Shown: positions 4,766-24,639 of the stretch, one piece after another | How the letters are laid out: each line of letters starts with the position of its first letter | Numbering within the stretch: the first letter of the stretch is position 1 | Assembly (NCBI GenBank): GCA_017617575.1 | Contig: JAFZVY010000128.1 | Coordinates: 1-42,200, forward strand | Direction: 5' to 3' | DNA length: 42,200 nt | DNA from: Bacteroidaceae bacterium | Lineage (GTDB): Bacteria; Bacteroidota; Bacteroidia; Bacteroidales; Bacteroidaceae | The notes under the pieces: model-generated | What the model was told of the DNA's origin: nothing | Database searches by the model: none | Seen by the model: the letters and a program-made list of their open reading frames with translations, nothing else | Position numbers and translations under genes: made by a program

Positions 4766-5118
4766 AATAATAGAATTCAAGTTTCGCAAGTTATGCTGAA
4801 GGTTTACTTGCAAGGAGTTAAAGAGGAATTAAAGAGACGAATGTCAATCGCAAAGTGGTTTGGAAAGAACAAAATTAATAAAATTAAAGAACTTTTCTCA
4901 CCGAAGGTAAAATTTGTTTTATCTCATTTTCTCTTGTTTTCGTTCTCATTTTTACGAAGAATATTATAAGAAATTTTCCTTAATTTTACCTACGGTGAGA
5001 AAAGTTCTAAATTTTCGTTCTTCAAAAAAATCTGCGAACAATCATACGTCTTTTTAACTTCATGTATAACTACAATTTAACTACAATTTAACTACAAAAT
5101 AAACCAGAATAATAGAAT
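4766..5118. repeat. MITE-like repeat family A, copy 1, with flanking 11-bp direct repeat
   Basis: The left arm (from GTTTCGCAAG at 4781) carries GGAGTTAAAG-type units; the right arm (about 5045-5097) carries TTTAACTACAA units at 11-bp steps. The core is bounded by a 27-bp inverted repeat (4889-4915 and 4981-5007, 25 matches). The 11-mer AATAATAGAAT stands directly outside both ends (4766-4776 and 5108-5118), as a target-site duplication would. Compared with copies 2, 3 and 5 the core of this copy is inverted. A 93-residue open frame inside is not a gene. Confidence 0.8.
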
Positions 5119-5136
5119 GATGCAAAAACAACAAAG

Positions 5137-6251
5137 CGACAGATTGAGAACTTTCAAAATAAAGAACGAGATAAGTTATCTTGAAACCATGAGACTAATA
5201 TGAGTCAGACATGAGACTATTCCAAGAATAATCAGAAATAGCCATAATTGTCGCTCGAAAAAGGTAAATGATAAATAATAATGGTGCACACATTATATAT
5301 ACTTCTCAATCTGTCACCCGAAATGCAAACAAACATATACCTGTCCATAATAAAAACGACAGATTGATAACTTTTATATATGCAAACAAGCAAGTCCACA
5401 CAGATAAAGCAAAAAAACAAAGAGTATTTTGACCGTTGAATGCTTTATGTAACCTGTATTTCGTGGAAAAAACTTCTCAATCTGTCGCTCTATAAAAAGA
5501 GAATCCAAATATAAACCCCAATTTATAGCCACATAGAACTAAAGCAGAACATCGGAAACAAATATGAAGAACCTATATTCGCACGACAGATTGATAACTT
5601 TTCAAGGAAAAACTTCTCAATCTGTCCCTTTGGGGCTGAAGTTATCATTTTGTCGACCGTATAAAGTCCTAAAAGTTCTCCATCTGTCACCCGAAATGAG
5701 AGGAAAAACACAGAAAAATAAATAAGTTATTGATTTATACCTACTATCAAAAAGTTATCAAATTGTCGCTCAAAAAACGTCAAAAAAGGCAAGTTCTATG
5801 ATTGTCCACCGAAAAATTGCAGATTTTTTCTAAATTTTTCGCTAAAAACCGATTGCGTTAGAAATAAAAGTTATATATTTGTCGCGGAATTAAGAATAAT
5901 GAGGGAAAATCGACAGATTGAGAACTCATATTTTTGTATTATCATTTAATCTAAAAAGATTTTAATTTAAATTTTAGGCTTTCGATTCGACTATATTTTT
6001 TATGTCTTTTAACATGTATTATATATATGTCGAAACGTAACTCTTTGAAAATCCGAATGTACTAAGCATTTGAAGCGACAGATAGATAAGTATGTGGCGA
6101 CAGATGTAGAAGTTAACGGAGACAGATTGAGAACTCAGAAGTGACAGAATGAGAACTTTTTGAGGGTAAATCGACAGATTGAGAAGTCTAAACCGACAGA
6201 TTGAGAACATTTCCACTTGTTGAACGTAAAAAGTTCTCATTTTGTCTCTCG
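5137..6251. other. Iteron-type replication origin
   Basis: I count about 19 copies of a 17-bp iteron, best form CGACAGATTGAGAACTT. Forward copies start at 5137, 5357, 5584, 5911, 6076, 6098, 6120, 6142, 6172 and 6194; reverse copies lie near 5301, 5471, 5611, 5639, 5671, 5750, 5791, 5867 and 6229, with a partial one near 5242. The promoter-proximal cluster steps by exactly 22 bp (6076, 6098, 6120, 6142; then 6172 and 6194). A very AT-rich stretch at about 5930-6050 between iteron clusters is a likely unwinding element. The last forward and the reverse iteron (6194-6251) form an inverted pair just before the rep start and probably act as an autoregulatory operator. This arrangement is known for Rep_3-family plasmids; function here is inferred. 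Confidence 0.85.
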
Positions 6252-16816: not shown

Positions 16817-17527
16817 AAATAATAGGTGTTATTCGTCCTATTCATTGCATTCTGTCTTGTCAAATCTGCCGAATAATTTTGTGACTGATTACAGAATGTG
16901 TCAATTTATACTCCGATTTTGACTCTCCATAAAAAGGGCGAATGACATTTGTTTTATCCACAAAAATATGATAAGGTCTGCGTGCATAAATACATATCGG
17001 ATTGTCCTTTAAAAATTCAGCAAAAAGCCGCATTTTTTTTCCTCGCCAGAAAAAAAATTTTACCTCACCAGAAAGTTTAAATTACTTCGTGAGAGAAAAA
17101 ATATTTTATCGTGATATAATTTCGACTTTCTCGTTATTTTCGTGATTTTTTATCTCAAAAATTTACGATAAGTCCCTCCCTAAATTGCAAAACAGAATCG
17201 TACAAAAAGAACAAGTGTATTGACTTTACATTTTACCTCATTTACTTAATGAACTCTTACATGAAAATAACCTATTACCAATTATCACAACTCGTTCCGT
17301 TGTGAAGCTGACTATTTGTCCTTACTCTGCTCCATCAATGCTTGGTATTCCGTTCCTATATCAAATAGTATAAGCGTGATGGACGAATAAGAAGAACGTA
17401 AAGTGGATGGAAACAGAAAAGTCGAATAGGACAAAAGAAAACAAATAGAGAAAGCTTGACTCACTTTTTTTGCATTCTTAATATCGTACCGCTCTTACAT
17501 ATTATTGATTATGCACAACATAGCAAA
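16817..17527. other. AT-rich gene-free DNA with one DnaA-box-like site
   Basis: No gene found. It includes a perfect DnaA-box consensus TTATCCACA at 16954-16962 and a strongly AT-rich block (about 17020-17170) in which TTTTACCTCACCAGAAAG and related C-poor motifs recur. A single DnaA box does not make an origin; I note it because it precedes the 22-bp repeat array. Confidence 0.4.
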
Positions 17528-17625
17528 CCATATCTTCTCTTTGAAAAAAGATATGGGTGTAAATGTCGGGAGATATGGGTATAAAACCAAAAAGATATGG
17601 GGTCTGTAGTAGAATGATATGGGTC
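17528..17625. repeat. GATATGGGT array at 22-bp period
   Basis: ATATGG(G) occurs at 17551, 17573, 17595 and 17617, steps of exactly 22 bp, with different sequence between copies. An inverted copy, ACCATATCTT at about 17527-17537, faces the first repeat to make a palindrome. Further single copies of ATATGG follow at 17688 and 17698. Spacing of two helical turns suggests a protein-binding array, similar in period to the rep iterons but with a different motif. Confidence 0.65.
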
Positions 17626-17913
17626 TCTCTGTAAACAGATGTACCCTATGTCATGAGATAGGACAAAACGAAACATGCAGTCTCTTGATATGGCAAAATA
17701 TGGATGTCTATGAATGTAAAAAGGAGAATGGGCAGCATAAGGAATAACATGAAACATCGAGACACAAGTACATTTACTTTTATCTATGGATTCATGACAA
17801 AAGAAGTTTGTGATATAGGTGAAAAGCTCATTTGTATGCTTTCCTATCGCTTTTTTCAAAATTTTCTTTGAAACAAAATACATAATCACAAAAAAAGTCT
17901 TATTTTTGCATAA

Positions 17914-18211
17914 GTTTCGTGAAGCCTATGCTTAGGTAACGGAACAACTACATTGTGGAAAAGCGGCACTATACGCTTTGTTTTTGGTCGTTTGAACTAC
18001 CACTTCAATTTCCAAACAAAGACAAATGCAGAGGTGATGCTATAGGGTGTATATATAAGTGCATCCAGTAGTGTGCAGGAGGGCGTTGCTCTCGTGCACA
18101 CGTTTCGGGTGTATTATATAGGCTTATGAGGGTATCGAATCTGTTTGTTCTATTGAGAGGGCTGTGGTAGGCCTAAAAGACGGAACGAGCAGAGGAGATA
18201 CCCTCTTTTTA
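17914..18211 (+). ncRNA. Candidate highly structured RNA of about 300 nt
   Basis: A -7 motif TATTTTTG (17901-17908; no good -33 at the usual distance) precedes a gene-free stretch with many consistent helices. AAGCCTAT (17922-17929) closes with ATAGGCTT (18118-18125). Inside are CTTTGTTTTTGG/CCAAACAAAG (17976-17987 and 18012-18021) topped by TTGAA/TTCAA, GATGC/GCATC (18036-18040 and 18061-18065), and GTGTGCA/TGCACAC (18071-18077 and 18095-18101). A 3' domain GAGGGTATC/GATACCCTC (18128-18136 and 18197-18205) contains an 11-bp helix (18140-18150 with 18183-18193) and ends in TTTTT. It does not show tmRNA, RNase P RNA or SRP RNA signatures that I know. hxsA starts 63 bp later, so it could be an independent RNA or a leader. 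Confidence 0.65.
18128..18210 (+). terminator. Terminator domain of the structured RNA
   Basis: GAGGGTATC and GATACCCTC enclose an 11-bp inner helix and a small GGCT/GGCC hairpin; five T residues follow at 18206. The large apical structure is unusual for a simple terminator. Readthrough would reach hxsA. Confidence 0.65.
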
Positions 18212-18273: not shown

Positions 18274-19215
18274 ATGGACACATCTCATAAAGGATTGCTA
18301 AAATCTATTTTGCTAACATCAATAGCAGCCTTGGGAACTTCTCCATCAAATGCAGCAGAAGTTCGTCCTATGGTGGCATATAGCAAACATGAAAATAATG
18401 GTAATAGTGATAACTCTTCATTTATGGAACGATTAAATTCTGGAGTGTTAGCAAGTTATTCTAATCCTTCGGAAGTTACCGGACATAGTTCTCATCGTTC
18501 TCATAGTTCTCATCGTTCACACACATCTTCTGGTGGTGGAGGAGGTGGAGGTTTTGGTGGAATTAATGGTAAGACAGTTGGTGTTTCTTTAGGTGCAATT
18601 GCAGGTGGAGTAACCATCTATTACGTTATTAAGGCAATTTGTAAGTCTGTAAAATCTCACAAAAAAACAGTTTCTGCAGAACGTTCGGTATACAATAAAT
18701 ATGTTTACATCAAATATGGAAGTCGAGAAATCCGTAAAGGAGTTTATGGAAGTGATGTGGATGAAATGATTGATTCTTTATGTGCTAATGGTGTTCTTTT
18801 TAGAAAGAAACTTAAAAGAAAAAATAGTTACCATTATAAATATAATTATGCTGCCAAACGTGCTGTGAAGCGAATGCAAGTAAGAATGGGAAGAAAGAAA
18901 ACATCATACGCATCGAAAACATTCCAGATGGATTTGAAAAACTGGAAACAACGTCGTAACTATTACGATAGTTTGTTGTCTGCGGATTCTATTTGCATCG
19001 AACAGAATAAGAATGCTCTTACTGCCGTTGCAATATTGCTCGTTGAGAAGGGTTTTCTAAAAGAGTACGATGCGGATAATATCATGGATATTGATATGAA
19101 AAATAGGGTTATAAATGCTTATAATGATTTTCAAAAGAGTGCTGGCTTAGAAGTTTCATGTATCGTGGATATGCAAACACTTGCAAAATTATATTCACTC
19201 CCGACTGTAAAATAA
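18274..19215 (+). CDS. hxsA: HxsA: His-Xaa-Ser repeat precursor protein
   Basis: This 313-residue protein is the probable substrate of the two radical SAM enzymes encoded downstream. Residues 1-28 look like an export signal (LLKSILLTSIAALGTSPSNA). Residues 71-85 are five perfect His-Xaa-Ser triplets (HSS HRS HSS HRS HTS), followed by seven glycines (87-93) and a hydrophobic segment (about 102-121, VGVSLGAIAGGVTIYYVI). A basic region (about 125-225) leads to a C-terminal domain (about 245-305) that resembles a peptidoglycan-binding type 1 fold: AVAILLVEKGFL, a variable loop, then FQKSAGLEVSCIVDMQTLAKL. That layout matches the HxsA family. Its stop overlaps the start of hxsD (TAATG). In the family the repeats are thought to be modified, but the chemistry and function are not settled. 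Identification is from memory of the family and the operon. Confidence 0.85.
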   Translation: MDTSHKGLLKSILLTSIAALGTSPSNAAEVRPMVAYSKHENNGNSDNSSFMERLNSGVLASYSNPSEVTGHSSHRSHSSHRSHTSSGGGGGGGFGGINGKTVGVSLGAIAGGVTIYYVIKAICKSVKSHKKTVSAERSVYNKYVYIKYGSREIRKGVYGSDVDEMIDSLCANGVLFRKKLKRKNSYHYKYNYAAKRAVKRMQVRMGRKKTSYASKTFQMDLKNWKQRRNYYDSLLSADSICIEQNKNALTAVAILLVEKGFLKEYDADNIMDIDMKNRVINAYNDFQKSAGLEVSCIVDMQTLAKLYSLPTVK

Positions 19216-19553
19216 TGAAATCATTTAGAATTATAGATGCACATAATGCTCAATTGGAAATTGATACATCTTTGTTTTCAAAGTCTGTTGTTACAAAAGT
19301 ATTGTATTGGTTAAACAATAATTATACTGTTATGTTATCGTGTGACGATAACATAATTAAGATGGAACTTGAATGTGTCCATGAACATGATTGGGATAAA
19401 GTTAAGAAAGATATTTCTACGATGTTGAGTGATTATCAAATGCGTGAACTCATTGAACAAGAAACTCGCGACATTCGTAATATATTGTATGTTAAAGCAT
19501 TTGCAAATGTTGATGAATTAACGGATTATAGCGCAGATAAAGATGTCATATAA
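19215..19553 (+). CDS. hxsD: HxsD: small His-Xaa-Ser system protein
   Basis: This 112-residue protein starts at ATG 19215, sharing one base with the hxsA stop; an earlier in-frame start would overlap hxsA more deeply without reason. It begins with a short beta-rich part (about 1-50: VVTKVLYWLNNNYTVMLSCD) and ends with the conserved-looking helix RELIEQETRDIRNILYVKAF (about 77-96), which fits the HxsD family as I recall it. Members are small soluble proteins always encoded with HxsB and HxsC. A role in presenting the precursor to the enzymes, like a RiPP recognition element, is an inference. It overlaps hxsB by 11 bp, so translation is probably coupled. Confidence 0.8.
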   Translation: MKSFRIIDAHNAQLEIDTSLFSKSVVTKVLYWLNNNYTVMLSCDDNIIKMELECVHEHDWDKVKKDISTMLSDYQMRELIEQETRDIRNILYVKAFANVDELTDYSADKDVI

Positions 19554-20946
19554 GTTGCTTCCCTTTAGATTTACTCGTATAGGGACTAAAGAACTAATTG
19601 TTAACGAGGTCGGTGACTTTGTTTTTATGCCCTTTGGTACTGTTAGAAGGTTACTTAAGGGAAATATTGATGTGCGTTCTGAGGTGTATAAGGATTTGCT
19701 TTCTAAATATATTGTTTGTGACGAGTACAATGGATTTCTTCAAGATGTTATTGCGACTAGAATAAGAACCAAGAAATCTTTTCTTGATGGGTTTACAGGT
19801 TTGCACATATTTGTGCTTACCTTGCGTTGTAATCAGAAATGTATTTATTGTCAAGCAACAAGTAAAGACTGTGGCTGTTCTTGTAAAGATATGGAGATTA
19901 AATACCTTGATGACGCAATTCGCTTGATGCTAAAGTCACCAAATCCGCATATTACAATGGAGTTTCAGGGAGGGGAGTCTTCATTAGTTCCTAAGTTGGT
20001 GGAATATGCTATTGTGGAAACTGAACGACAGAATAAGGAAGTGGGGAAGGATATTACATATGTTATGTGTTCAAATATAATAAACTTCCCTGAGGAACTT
20101 TTGCGTTTGTGTGTTAAATACAATGTATTTGTATCAACGTCACTTGATGGACCTGAATTTATTCATGACCATAATAGGGGGGTAAGTGGCAGTTATATGA
20201 ATTTTGTTGCATCTTTGACAAGAATAAAAGAACGGCTTGGAGATGATAGGATTTCTCCGTTAATGACTACTTCTTCTTTATCTTTGGATTTCCCGATCGA
20301 AATCATTGATTCATATCGAAGTCTTGGCTTTCATTATATTTTTTTGCGCCCGTTGAATCCATATGGAAGGGCAAAAGGAATTGTTGACTGGAATTTGTAT
20401 TACGACAAATACATAGATTTCTATAAGAAATCCTTAACTTATATTTTGTCTTTAAACAGATCTGGAGAATGCTTTGTGGAAGGTTTTACTACTATGGTTA
20501 TGAAGAAAATCCTGACTCCATTCCCCGTGGGCTTTGTTGATTTACAATCACCTGCTGGCATTATTAATAGTGTTGTCGTGTATAATTATGATGGATATGT
20601 GTACTGTTCTGACGAATCACGTATGATGGCAGAATGTGGTGATTATACTTTTCGCTTGGGACGAGTTTCTGATAAATATGAGGATGTGTTTTATGGTAGA
20701 AAGAGTCAAGAACTATCAAAAGTTTGGGCTACGGAATATATTGCAGGCTGTTCGGATTGTGCATATCAACAATATTGTGGAGCAGACCCAGTAAGAAATT
20801 ATTCCACTCAAGGTGATTGGTATGGTCATAGACCTAGTAGCTTATATTGCAAGTTTCATAAGGCTATTTTTGATTATCTGTTTGAACTTATTGACAAAAG
20901 TGGTGACGAAGTGTTGCCAATATTTAGAAAATGGATTTATGATTGA
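19543..20946 (+). CDS. hxsB: HxsB: radical SAM/SPASM maturase of the His-Xaa-Ser system
   Basis: This 467-residue protein has an N-terminal substrate-recognition-like region (about 1-85), then a radical SAM core with the cluster motif C96-x3-C100-x2-C103 in TLRCNQKCIYCQ. Next comes a glycine-rich SAM-binding stretch (FQGGESSLV, about 147) and a C-terminal Cys-rich SPASM-like region (GCSDCAYQQYCGADP, then a YCKFH Cys) that would bind auxiliary iron-sulfur clusters. Such enzymes modify ribosomal peptides by radical chemistry; here the presumed substrate is the HxS repeat of HxsA. It overlaps hxsD by 11 bp and hxsC by 8 bp. Radical SAM/SPASM assignment is certain from motifs; the Hxs assignment rests on the neighbours and the overall layout. 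Confidence 0.88.
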   Translation: MSYKLLPFRFTRIGTKELIVNEVGDFVFMPFGTVRRLLKGNIDVRSEVYKDLLSKYIVCDEYNGFLQDVIATRIRTKKSFLDGFTGLHIFVLTLRCNQKCIYCQATSKDCGCSCKDMEIKYLDDAIRLMLKSPNPHITMEFQGGESSLVPKLVEYAIVETERQNKEVGKDITYVMCSNIINFPEELLRLCVKYNVFVSTSLDGPEFIHDHNRGVSGSYMNFVASLTRIKERLGDDRISPLMTTSSLSLDFPIEIIDSYRSLGFHYIFLRPLNPYGRAKGIVDWNLYYDKYIDFYKKSLTYILSLNRSGECFVEGFTTMVMKKILTPFPVGFVDLQSPAGIINSVVVYNYDGYVYCSDESRMMAECGDYTFRLGRVSDKYEDVFYGRKSQELSKVWATEYIAGCSDCAYQQYCGADPVRNYSTQGDWYGHRPSSLYCKFHKAIFDYLFELIDKSGDEVLPIFRKWIYD

Positions 20947-21814
20947 TAAATTTTATAAAGGAACAAATAACAATGCATTGTTTGTCACATCCTTTTGTTC
21001 AAATAGATGTGTTATGTGTTGTCAGCCACCATTGACAGAAGAGAATCAAGCAGAGCTTTATGATAGGAATATAAAGCTAATTGCTTCTGCAGATAGTGAT
21101 ACTGATTATGTCTGTATTACAGGTGGCGAACCCACTTTGATAGGTGAACGTTTGTTTGAATACATGAATAAGATTTGGAAACAAATGCCGCATTGCTGTA
21201 TTCATTTGCTGTCAAATGGCAGATCGTTTTCCAAACCAAAATATATCGAGAGATTTTATGAAGAAACTAAAAGCCATCTCGTTATAGGCATCCCTCTACA
21301 TTCTGATAATTATTTGGATCATGATTTAATCGCAGGCTCAAAAGGTGCTTTTTATGAGACAATAAAAGGATTACATAATCTGGGAGTTCTTGGATACGAG
21401 ATTGAGTTACGAGTCGTAATCTTAAAACAAAACTATAAACGTTTGGATAAAATAGCGGAGTTTATTATTCATAATTTGCCGTTTGTCTCTCAGGTCTCTT
21501 TTATGGGATTGGAAGTCGTGGGAAATGCTTATGGAAATTTCTCAAAAGTATGGGTAGAGTATGCTGAATTTCGTTCCATATTAGAGCGTGCTGTGTTTTT
21601 ACTTGACAGTTGTAAAATACAGGTGAGAATTTTTAACATACCACATTGTTGCTTACCTATATCTTTATGGACTTTTTCATGTAAGTCTATTTCTGAATGG
21701 AAAAAGACAAATACAAAAGTCTGTAATAAATGTGTTTATATTGAAGATTGTTGTGGAATTTTTTCTACGTCAAAATATATAAGTTCAGAAATAAAGCCAA
21801 TAGTATATAAATAG
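20939..21814 (+). CDS. hxsC: HxsC: second radical SAM enzyme of the His-Xaa-Ser system
   Basis: This 291-residue protein starts at ATG 20939 inside the last codons of hxsB; longer in-frame extensions would overlap hxsB by 130 bp and add no domain. The radical SAM motif C20-x3-C24-x2-C27 (SFCSNRCVMCCQPP) is almost at the N-terminus, with CVTGGEPT-like SAM-binding residues (CITGGEPTLIGE) near 62. The C-terminus carries further cysteines (KVCNKCVYIEDCCGIF) that may hold an extra cluster. The CCQPP motif after the cluster is characteristic of HxsC. It is shorter than HxsB and lacks its N-terminal domain. Pairing of two radical SAM proteins suggests two modifications or two steps; which enzyme does what is unknown. 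Confidence 0.86.
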   Translation: MIDKFYKGTNNNALFVTSFCSNRCVMCCQPPLTEENQAELYDRNIKLIASADSDTDYVCITGGEPTLIGERLFEYMNKIWKQMPHCCIHLLSNGRSFSKPKYIERFYEETKSHLVIGIPLHSDNYLDHDLIAGSKGAFYETIKGLHNLGVLGYEIELRVVILKQNYKRLDKIAEFIIHNLPFVSQVSFMGLEVVGNAYGNFSKVWVEYAEFRSILERAVFLLDSCKIQVRIFNIPHCCLPISLWTFSCKSISEWKKTNTKVCNKCVYIEDCCGIFSTSKYISSEIKPIVYK

Positions 21815-21820
21815 TTGTAT

Positions 21821-23101
21821 ATGAATAAGGTTTGGACGTGGTCTTTACATGTTCCATACATATTGTTCTTTGTGTGGTATCTTGTGGCAAGTTTTGTCAA
21901 TGTTTATGCGTGTGATGATTATTGGCATGGAACAAATGTTCACTTGTATGGTTTTGAAAACGCACAATTGTATTATTGGTACAATTGGGAAGGCTCGTTT
22001 ACACATACATTTTTGGCGACACTGCCACATATTTTCAGTTTCGAAAGGATGCCTTTTATTTGTAACCTTATTTCATTGCTTTTTTTGTTGTTGTCGGTTA
22101 TGACTTTTTTAAGGACTTTTTACTGTTTAACAAGGATTAAGGCATTTATTTGTTCGTGTTATTTAGTTGCATTTCTATATACTTTTACAACAGGAAAGGC
22201 GGAAATTCGTTTTTGGGTGTGCGCAAATGTTACGTATCTTTTTGGGGTTTCTACAACTTTAATTTTCTTGTCCTTATATCATGTTTATGACTATTCAATA
22301 AAGAAAACAACCATTTTAATATTGTTAATGGTGGTAATTGTTGGAAATAAAATATCATTCGTATATATGCTTTTTCTTGTAACTATATGTCATGACATTG
22401 TATATGGTCGACTTACAAAAAAACGTTTCTTTTTTATGTCTTTGTCTATTTTGTTCCTGTCTATGTTTAATATTCTTGCGCCTGGTAATGTTATTCGTAT
22501 GATACAAAATTTGGGAGATAGTGAAGAATGTAGGATGACATTTGAAGAGGCAATAACGGATCGTTTTTTCCGCTTACTTCCGTTTGTTAAACATTTATTT
22601 CTTTTGACTCCAATTTGTAAGTTTTTGAATGTTACAATAAGTAAAAGTACAATTGTGATTCTTACCCTTGCATTTGTTTTTATTTTTGTTGGAGATACTA
22701 CGATTATGTACCTATGCTTTCATGATAGTGGTCCAATGAGAACAAATATAACACTTGAAGTGTCAGCTGTATTGTATTCGATGTCATTAATATGTTATTT
22801 TAATGCATATTTGAAGTCCCCAAAATTGAAAATAATATCATGGTTACTCATAATGGTATTCGCAGCTTATGGTTGTCGTAATATGTTTCTAATAAAGCAA
22901 TCGTATGAATATTCAAGATTAGCGAAAGAACGTGAAAGAAAAGTGTTGTCAAGTAATGATGAAAAAGAATTGTTTTTGTCTCCTTTGCCAAATTCAGGTT
23001 TACTACTTTCGTATTTCTGTAATGACAAGGAATGGCTTGAAAATGTTTATATTCCATACTATAACAACAAGACATCCGAAGTGTTTGTATCTTGTGAATG
23101 A
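21821..23101 (+). CDS. Polytopic membrane protein, GT-C glycosyltransferase-like, in the hxs operon
   Basis: This 426-residue protein begins at ATG 21821, 6 bp after the hxsC stop. It has about ten hydrophobic segments spread over its whole length. The first is followed by CDDYWHG at residues 31-37 in the first outer loop and then NWEGSFTHTFLATLPHIF; a paired Asp in that loop is the hallmark of GT-C polyprenyl-phosphate-sugar-dependent glycosyltransferases and of the related DUF6056 proteins. If that reading is right it transfers a sugar on the outer face of the inner membrane. Its position at the end of a tightly packed operon suggests a link with mature HxsA. The fold is inferred from motif and topology; the link is inferred from spacing. 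A plain uncharacterised membrane protein remains possible. Confidence 0.68.
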   Translation: MNKVWTWSLHVPYILFFVWYLVASFVNVYACDDYWHGTNVHLYGFENAQLYYWYNWEGSFTHTFLATLPHIFSFERMPFICNLISLLFLLLSVMTFLRTFYCLTRIKAFICSCYLVAFLYTFTTGKAEIRFWVCANVTYLFGVSTTLIFLSLYHVYDYSIKKTTILILLMVVIVGNKISFVYMLFLVTICHDIVYGRLTKKRFFFMSLSILFLSMFNILAPGNVIRMIQNLGDSEECRMTFEEAITDRFFRLLPFVKHLFLLTPICKFLNVTISKSTIVILTLAFVFIFVGDTTIMYLCFHDSGPMRTNITLEVSAVLYSMSLICYFNAYLKSPKLKIISWLLIMVFAAYGCRNMFLIKQSYEYSRLAKERERKVLSSNDEKELFLSPLPNSGLLLSYFCNDKEWLENVYIPYYNNKTSEVFVSCE

Positions 23102-23133: not shown

Positions 23134-23964
23134 GGTATTGATGCAAAGTTAATTACTTTTTGGTGCGGATTCAGCCGTTCCAACCTTATCTATATGCGTA
23201 AGTTTTATTTGACTTTCCAAAAAAGTGAGACACTGTCTCACAAATTGACGTGGAGTCATTATTTTGAATTGCTAAAGTGAGAAGACACTTTAGAAATGCA
23301 GTTCTATATGAAGGAATGCGTCAAAGATGGATGGAGTGTTAGAGTATTGAAACGTCAGATTAACTCTTCTCTTTTCCAAAGACTTGCGCTTAGTACAGAT
23401 AAAGAAGGTGTACTTGCTCTTGCAAATGAAGGTCATCGGGTTATGTCAGCAGCTGATATTATACGCGACCCATACGTTTTGGAGTTTACTGGTTTGCCAC
23501 AGCGAAAACAATATAAGGAATCTGATTTGGAGAAGGCCTTAAAGATTAATATGGAACAATTTCTGTTGGAATTGGGTAGAGGCTTCGCATTTATGGGACG
23601 TCAGTATGTCATACCAGTAGGAAGCAGGCGTTTCAAAGTGGATATGGTATTCTATAATGCTATATTGAAATGTTATGTTTTGATTGATTTGAAACGAGCT
23701 GAAATAAAGCATGGGGATATAGGTCAAATGAATCTCTATCTGAATTACTTCAAGAATGAAATTTGTCAGCCAGACGACAATCCTCCGATAGGTATTGTAT
23801 TGGGTGCAAAGAAAGATGAATTGTTGATGGAATATGCTCTTCAGAGCATAGACAATCAGTTGTTTGCTGCTCGTTATCAACTTTATCTTCCTAATCGAGA
23901 GGAACTACAAGCCCAATTGGACTTGTTACTTGACAATACAAAAAACAATACTACAGATGAATGA
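23134..23964 (+). pseudogene. Decayed DUF1016 (YhcG-type PDDEXK nuclease) gene
   Basis: Two open frames in the same reading frame, split by one TGA (23278-23280), together match the C-terminal two thirds of a DUF1016 nuclease. The first piece includes GFSRSNLIYMRKFYLTFQKS and LSHKLTWSHYFELLK; the second includes GWSVRVLKRQINSSLFQRLA, the nuclease core (FKVDMVFYNAIL, then VLIDLKRAEI) and the DNNPPIG-like end. The N-terminal part of the family (about 80-100 residues) is missing, because the frame begins right behind the hxs membrane gene. A functional copy is normally about 330-380 residues. The remaining nuclease domain (from 23296, 222 residues) has an intact-looking active site and could still be translated, but is most likely a remnant. 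Confidence 0.8.
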
Positions 23965-24016
23965 GGAGGAACTATCCAGAAGTGCAATTTGGCGGACAGA
24001 TTCCTTTTAGTTCTTT

Positions 24017-24639
24017 GTGTTTCATGTATTGTGCGTATATGGGCACAAAAGCCTAATTGTCCATAACTGTCATAATTGTCGTTGGGGTACAGGTGTTAGT
24101 CGTATGGTTGAATCATGCAAAAATGTAGGATTGCCAGAACCTGAATATGGGACAGATGGCACATTTGTCTGGATCATATTCAAGCGTCCTAGCTTAGACA
24201 CTAACTTAGACACTTATTCCGATTCTACACAAGAATTATCCGAAAGACAAAAGGAGGTGTTGGCTTATTGCATGATCCCAAGAAGTAGTAGGGATATATT
24301 GGAGCATATTGGATTGGCAAATCACACCAAGAATAGAGATAAGTTCATCATTAACCTTGTTGATCTATAGAGGAAGTCATTACTGAAAAAAACGGCAATG
24401 CGTCGGAAGAAAGTACATTGAAAAGTACATTGAAAAGTACATTGAAAGGAACTCAATTGGATATTGTGAAATGTATGTTAAACGATGCAAGTGCATCTAT
24501 TCCACAAATTGCGAATCAATTGCAGTTGCATCCAAGAGGAATCGCGAAACACATAAAGAGTTTGCAGGAACAAGGCATTATTCGCAGAGAAGGTCCAGAC
24601 AAAGGTGGTATTTGGGTTGTACTCGAGAAAACAGAATAA
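24017..24639 (+). pseudogene. Decayed AlbA_2/COG2865-type ATP-binding regulator
   Basis: Two fragments match the C-terminal half of proteins with an AlbA_2/Schlafen-like domain, an ATPase part and a winged helix. The first (24017-24370) contains WGTGVSRMVESCKNVGLPEP, the typical end of the ATP-binding part, and SERQKEVLAYCMIPRSSRDI of a winged helix; its first 20 residues are not homologous and it ends early at TAG near 24368. After a frame change the second (24418-24639) encodes another winged helix (QIANQLQLHPRGIAKHIKSL, REGPDKGGIWVVLE). The N-terminal half (about 250 residues) is absent. Proteins of this type are accessory, mobile and often defence-linked. The gene is broken and probably not functional. 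Confidence 0.75.
24411..24446 (+). repeat. Short tandem repeat in the broken regulator gene
   Basis: The 12-mer GAAAAGTACATT is repeated three times (first copy one A shorter), encoding STLKSTLKSTLK. It may have arisen by slippage and marks the junction of the two gene fragments. Confidence 0.7.

Follow-up and report, generated by a model that had tools for sequence, protein, structure and literature searches.

A minimal Hxs operon with a distinct HxsA and an additional membrane-protein gene in a Bacteroidaceae bacterium

The operon, its proteins and their relatives

We found a five-gene operon at positions 18274 to 23101 of a 42,200-nt stretch of DNA (hereafter, the window) on contig JAFZVY010000128.1 of a Bacteroidaceae bacterium (GCA_017617575.1). 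All genes lie on the plus strand. The first is hxsA (18274..19215; 313 aa), which encodes a protein with a His-Xaa-Ser (HxS) repeat. It is followed by hxsD (19215..19553; 112 aa), by two genes for radical SAM maturases, hxsB (19543..20946; 467 aa) and hxsC (20939..21814; 291 aa), and by ORF5 (21821..23101; 426 aa), which encodes a polytopic membrane protein. The coordinates reproduce exactly the layout given in a first-pass annotation of this DNA, with overlaps of 1 bp (hxsA/hxsD), 11 bp (hxsD/hxsB) and 8 bp (hxsB/hxsC) and a gap of 6 bp between hxsC and ORF5. A TTG at 21815 is a possible alternative start of ORF5. All five frames are open, and the overlaps and the radical SAM cysteines are intact.

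The operon has a G+C content of 0.305–0.374 per kb. It is thus AT-rich, as the first-pass annotation had noted, but other parts of the window are AT-rich as well (e.g., positions 1-1000, 5001-6000 and 17001-18000). The claim that the operon sits beside decayed accessory genes is borne out downstream, where ORFs look truncated: a YhcG-like ORF retains 28 of the 137 DUF1016_N positions, and the ORF after it covers the final 34 of the 89 positions in HATPase_c_4. Remnants lie at 23296-24639: the YhcG-type nuclease has lost the greater part of its N-terminal domain, and an ATPase/HTH protein is present in fragments.

Hxs systems are predicted to use radical chemistry on the HxS repeat, with HxsD as a helper. 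The proposed membership in this family, with its two radical SAM enzymes, agrees with the NCBIfam models, whose cut-offs are exceeded by HxsB (TIGR03978; 516.9 bits, cut-off 370), HxsC (TIGR03977; 308.5 bits, cut-off 267.9) and HxsD (TIGR03976; 72.7 bits, cut-off 50). All four proteins had been expected to match such models, but HxsA reaches 36.4 bits against TIGR03979, over residues 10-90, where the cut-off is 121.65. This makes it a diverged family member and not a TIGR03979 equivalog. Cysteines C96, C100 and C103 of HxsB and C20, C24 and C27 of HxsC are invariant in the respective alignments. The window's HxsC lacks an N-terminal part of ~85 residues found in the longer HxsC of another Hxs subtype. 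The fold model of HxsD (pLDDT 87.5) has no match in the PDB at E <=0.001, and PqqD is absent from the 50 matches listed; HxsD may be a PqqD-like recognition domain, but these matches lend the idea no support.

To place the operon among its relatives, named genomes were scanned with an alignment of three HxsB proteins, and the best 80 of the 183 resulting loci were analyzed, taking the longest open frames as genes and clustering them by BLAST. Half of these loci (40/80) are shorter than 20 kb, and some of the 80 stem from genomes that are nearly identical or from a single genome (L071 and L072), or are repeats (L035 = L028, L067 = L027). Of the best 80 of 183 loci, 79 contain hxsC, 74 contain hxsD and 67 contain an hxsA assigned to a cluster, as a rule in a single run of overlapping genes in the order A-D-B-C. 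Two tandem hxsA genes precede hxsD in L049, L050, L052, L055 and L079.

In a quick tree of 88 HxsB sequences (SH-aLRT support, no bootstrap), the window's HxsB falls into a supported five-member clade with L032-L035. Its nearest relative is L032, from Candidatus Minthosoma caballi, with 79-80% identity. The hxsA frame of L032 (upstream of 4917) is interrupted by a stop codon immediately ahead of the repeat, which is either real or an assembly error.

All the features claimed for HxsA from the sequence are present: residues 71-85 form five tandem HxS triplets, and beyond them lie a run of glycines, a hydrophobic stretch at ~101-119 and a peptidoglycan-binding-like end. This last region matches PG_binding_1 at residues 285-306 with 24.8 bits, just over the Pfam cut-off of 23. 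We aligned 70 of 73 clustered HxsA rows (the window and 69 others), excluding L032 because of its stop codon, L097, and L072 as a copy of L071. The tandem HxS run is present in 70/70 rows, and H74, S76 and H77 are invariant across them. A TIGR03979 match is found in 67/70 at E <=0.001, which is an E threshold and not the curated cut-off. PG_binding_1 occurs in 59/70 rows and TonB_C in 2/70, which supports an envelope-type C-terminus of HxsA. However, basic residues behind the hydrophobic segment, judged by eye, suggest that the C-terminus could be cytoplasmic, which would conflict with display at the envelope.

The hydrophobic segment sets the window's HxsA apart. A 19-residue stretch after the repeat has a mean hydropathy of 1.65-2.22 in the window, L033, L034 and L035 only, and the 19-residue mean is at most 1.49 in the remaining aligned HxsA proteins. 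This restricted occurrence indicates a clade with its own form of HxsA.

The gene hxsB is sparsely distributed. With an E-value of at most 1e-60 and including the window's own genome, it occurs in 12/301 genomes of the family and in 2/395 genomes of a phylum sample. Two of 20 other genomes of the same genus carry it (G238 and G274), and over the aligned parts their HxsB proteins are 37-49% identical to that of the window. In the own genome, a single hxsB exceeds the cut-off and a single HxsA-like match occurs, both of them inside the window. The patchy occurrence within the genus is in line with acquisition, which the first-pass annotation had considered likely, and the Hxs core was probably acquired horizontally.

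Relatives of HxsB are also found on mobile elements. They occur in 405 of 72,556 plasmid records, of which 316 are from Klebsiella and 323 are typed as conjugative, and in 2 of 50,697 phage records. We rejected a viral origin, because the window's HxsB used alone finds no relative in viral contigs. The HxsB alignment finds one full-length relative there (46%) and two weak, partial ones.

The fifth gene and envelope enzymes at other loci

The ORF5 protein contains a CDDYWHG loop. It matches PF19528 (DUF6056) over nearly its full length (residues 11-417) with 25.0 bits, below the gathering cut-off of 27. Alignment by hhalign to nine DUF6056 members gives a probability of 95.5 over residues 14-232, and the columns that are invariant in the family (D-D, G, P and R) are present in ORF5 as well. 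These similarities support ORF5 as a putative distant DUF6056 relative. The original description of ORF5 as GT-C-like, a label for glycosyltransferases, is partly supported by this distant relationship. However, the match is below the Pfam cut-off, the fold model from a single sequence is poor (pLDDT 43.3), and no solved structure is credibly related to the profile of DUF6056 (best E 4.4). We infer that ORF5 may be a GT-C transferase.

ORF5 had also been regarded as part of the Hxs system, but it does not co-occur with hxs elsewhere. Relatives of ORF5 are absent from the ORFs of the 80 related hxs loci, from 300 other genomes of the family and from viral contigs, which rules out ORF5 as a conserved Hxs component as far as recognizable homologues are concerned. 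The first-pass annotation had itself named such a lack of co-occurrence as grounds for refuting its interpretation. A fifth gene with a role in glycosylation would thus be at best a private add-on. Among the polytopic hxs neighbors listed, only ORF5 has a PG..R motif. DUF6056 itself occurs in 14 of 151 family genomes, in 7 of them over the cut-off, and the same search finds no match at E 0.001 in the window's own genome.

Other hxs loci carry envelope enzymes of different kinds. Among the best 80 loci, MBOAT proteins occur in 8 (0.7 copies expected), AlgX-like proteins in 9, and a family that we take to be carbamoyltransferase-like in 7. All three are found together near hxs in scattered lineages (L055, L063, L075, L082, L083, L097 and L105). 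In L021 (399-2964) and L022 (5832-8398), which belong to the other subtype and are nearly identical to each other, hxsA is followed by a GT2 gene and a gene for a polytopic protein. The GT2 protein resembles polyprenyl-phosphate hexose transferases, with scores below all model cut-offs, and the polytopic protein has no family match. It is possible that the two form an independent lipid-linked sugar pair. Envelope-enzyme genes at other hxs loci lend indirect support to ORF5 as an add-on of this type.

A different explanation is that ORF5 is an unrelated hitchhiker, i.e., a surface-glycan gene of the DUF6056 type that lies in a decayed region and is co-transcribed with hxs with no effect on HxsA. 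The lack of co-occurrence across the 80 loci and 300 family genomes fits this explanation, as do the truncated genes directly downstream. Moreover, DUF6056 occurs without hxsB: the 14 genomes with DUF6056 and the 12 with hxsB have none in common. On the other hand, ORF5 is full-length, on the same strand as hxsC and 6 bp from it, and envelope enzymes are carried by other hxs operons as well. We therefore consider a hitchhiking ORF5 to be quite plausible, if somewhat short of probable.

Channel, nuclease and phosphorylation genes beside related loci

Clustering of neighboring genes revealed a group that accompanies hxs in Bacteroidales. It comprises a potassium channel, an Endonuclease_NS protein, a kinase, a VWA protein, a PP2C phosphatase and TerY_C, as well as three further families whose scanned representatives match no curated model. 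The channel (Ion_trans) occurs in 25 of the best 80 loci versus 0.38 copies expected, and Endonuclease_NS in 25 versus 0.42, where the expectation comes from 41 relatives of the window's genome and the hxs loci include other orders. The sequence TVGYGD is present in 25/25 channels, and many of the nucleases appear by eye to have a signal-like start. Channel and nuclease are found together in 15 of the best 80 loci. Each is in one run with hxs in 13/80, and 3/25 channel genes and 8/25 nuclease genes are oriented against hxsB.

A TerY-P system consists of a VWA protein, a PP2C phosphatase and a zinc-ribbon kinase, according to PMC11090510. A complete triad of this type is present in 16 of the best 80 loci (L050, L053, L055, L056, L057, L059, L060, L062, L064, L065, L067, L073, L074, L075, L079 and L101), always in one run with hxs and often along with TerY_C, the channel and Endonuclease_NS. 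The kinase of L027 has a zinc-ribbon match below the cut-off at residues 311-336. The triad is confined to one supported clade of 32 rows in the HxsB tree. The distributions require at least 11 changes on the tree for the triad, 17 for the channel and 17 for the nuclease, when cut flanks and seven not-yet-scanned rows of the other subtype are scored as absence.

Channel and/or nuclease genes also occur in three loci with a Tubulin_2/papain-like set and in three with a DUF4236-AAA set. In L038, L040 and L058, hxs adjoins genes for a Tubulin_2 protein and a ~1170 aa protein with a papain-like peptidase. A scan for known defense systems gave weak matches for the kinase, among them PD-T4-6 and mad6, as well as for HxsB and HxsC, which resemble pVip weakly, and no match for the other proteins scanned. 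Among 14 plasmid or phage regions, the last of which is unannotated, one has a thermonuclease gene after hxsC, one has such a gene on the opposite strand and one has an HNH protein nearby. These 3 of 14 are too few to claim that nucleases generally go with Hxs.

The recurrent association of hxs with genes for a potassium channel, a nuclease and a phosphorylation switch hints at a role in defense or stress. The window's operon might be what is left of a more extensive conflict or stress system, of which the peptide arm alone was kept. The 16 relatives with a full triad in one run with hxs and the 25 each with channel and nuclease, out of the best 80, are the basis for this idea. However, a tblastn search of the 42.2-kb window with members of these clusters finds no channel, nuclease, VWA, PP2C or kinase of the triad, and the window's four clade mates likewise have no channel, nuclease or triad. 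The same is true of nine loci of the other Hxs subtype (tblastn), among which L023 and L025 have only partial AAA/c7-like and c6-like pieces. Given that the triad is restricted to another clade of 32 rows, the minimal form may be the original one, and we think a vestige unlikely.

Proposed function and comparison with known systems

Our preferred reading, to which we assign a probability of roughly 0.5, is that the locus is an Hxs operon of the Bacteroidota type which is minimal and yet complete, whose HxsA has a peptidoglycan-binding-like end, is modified in its repeat and is placed at the envelope, with ORF5 as an optional decorating enzyme and with a probable horizontal origin. In the cytoplasm, HxsB and HxsC, with HxsD as a helper, would use radical chemistry to modify the repeat at His, Ser or both. 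The modified HxsA would then go to the cell envelope, where the hydrophobic segment and/or the peptidoglycan-binding-like end could anchor it. ORF5, which is placed for co-transcription with hxsC, would be a membrane enzyme of the DUF6056 type, most likely a lipid-linked sugar transferase predicted to work outside the inner membrane. As an optional local addition and not a core component, it is predicted to decorate HxsA or nearby envelope glycans. That the operon is instead decaying and non-functional is very unlikely: its neighbors are truncated, L032 has the stop codon in hxsA before the repeat and hxsB is split into two frames in G274 of the same genus, but the window's own five frames, overlaps and radical SAM cysteines are undamaged.

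More speculatively, Hxs in gut and rumen Bacteroidales could be no self-contained peptide pathway but the part of a conflict or stress system that acts at the envelope. A phosphorylation switch of the TerY-P type would control a potassium channel of the voltage-gated type, a DNA/RNA nuclease that is probably exported, and an HxS protein that is radical-modified and bound to peptidoglycan. The enzymes that decorate the envelope would be exchangeable (MBOAT/AlgX-like sets at some loci, a DUF6056-type enzyme in the window). The window would then represent a reduced lineage, left with the modified protein and a single decorating enzyme. We would not expect this broader scheme to hold as a whole, although it has some chance of doing so.

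Hxs genes are widespread and occur on conjugative plasmids, among other places. We found no function for Hxs in the open-access literature; most subscription papers were outside the search, so this absence is weak evidence. None of the open-access titles retrieved with Hxs motif or model names, or listed for TerY-P, TerB or radical SAM, is about Hxs. In PMC9062424, HxsA-type motifs putatively depend on HxsB and HxsC, with credit to Haft and Basu, and PMC8446631 lists hxs genes for Pseudomonas aeruginosa genomes. The genes carried by hxs relatives are a more interesting lead than the fifth gene, whose role is possible and lacks support from co-occurrence. The partnership of Hxs with channel, nuclease and TerY-P is a concrete functional lead that is testable in culturable Bacteroidota; one such organism, Segatella baroniae B14 (L055), has an hxs locus with triad and channel.

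The operon can be compared with four known systems. In PMC7159879, a radical SAM enzyme is predicted to modify a peptide effector in one NTP-dependent conflict system. Hxs resembles these systems in that a radical SAM enzyme is predicted to act on a separately encoded peptide, and some of them have kinase, PP2C and vWA neighbors. However, the terms 'hxs' and 'His-Xaa-Ser' are absent from the PMC7159879 text. TerY-P triads are linked, in PMC11090510, to restriction and processing systems and in one variant to phage defense. Such a triad adjoins hxs in 16 of the best 80 relatives, but the window has no triad genes. With DUF6056 (PF19528), ORF5 shares a weak but full-length match and the D-D, G, P and R columns; it differs in scoring below the cut-off and in having no close homologue in 300 family genomes. 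Finally, the window shares with the Hxs system (TIGR03976, TIGR03977, TIGR03978 and TIGR03979) the gene set, the radical SAM motifs and the HxS repeat, and differs from it in an HxsA that is below the cut-off and has a hydrophobic segment after the repeat, in a short HxsC and in the extra ORF5. The window thus holds a true Hxs operon that belongs to a separate clade of minimal type and is new in its form of HxsA and in its extra gene.
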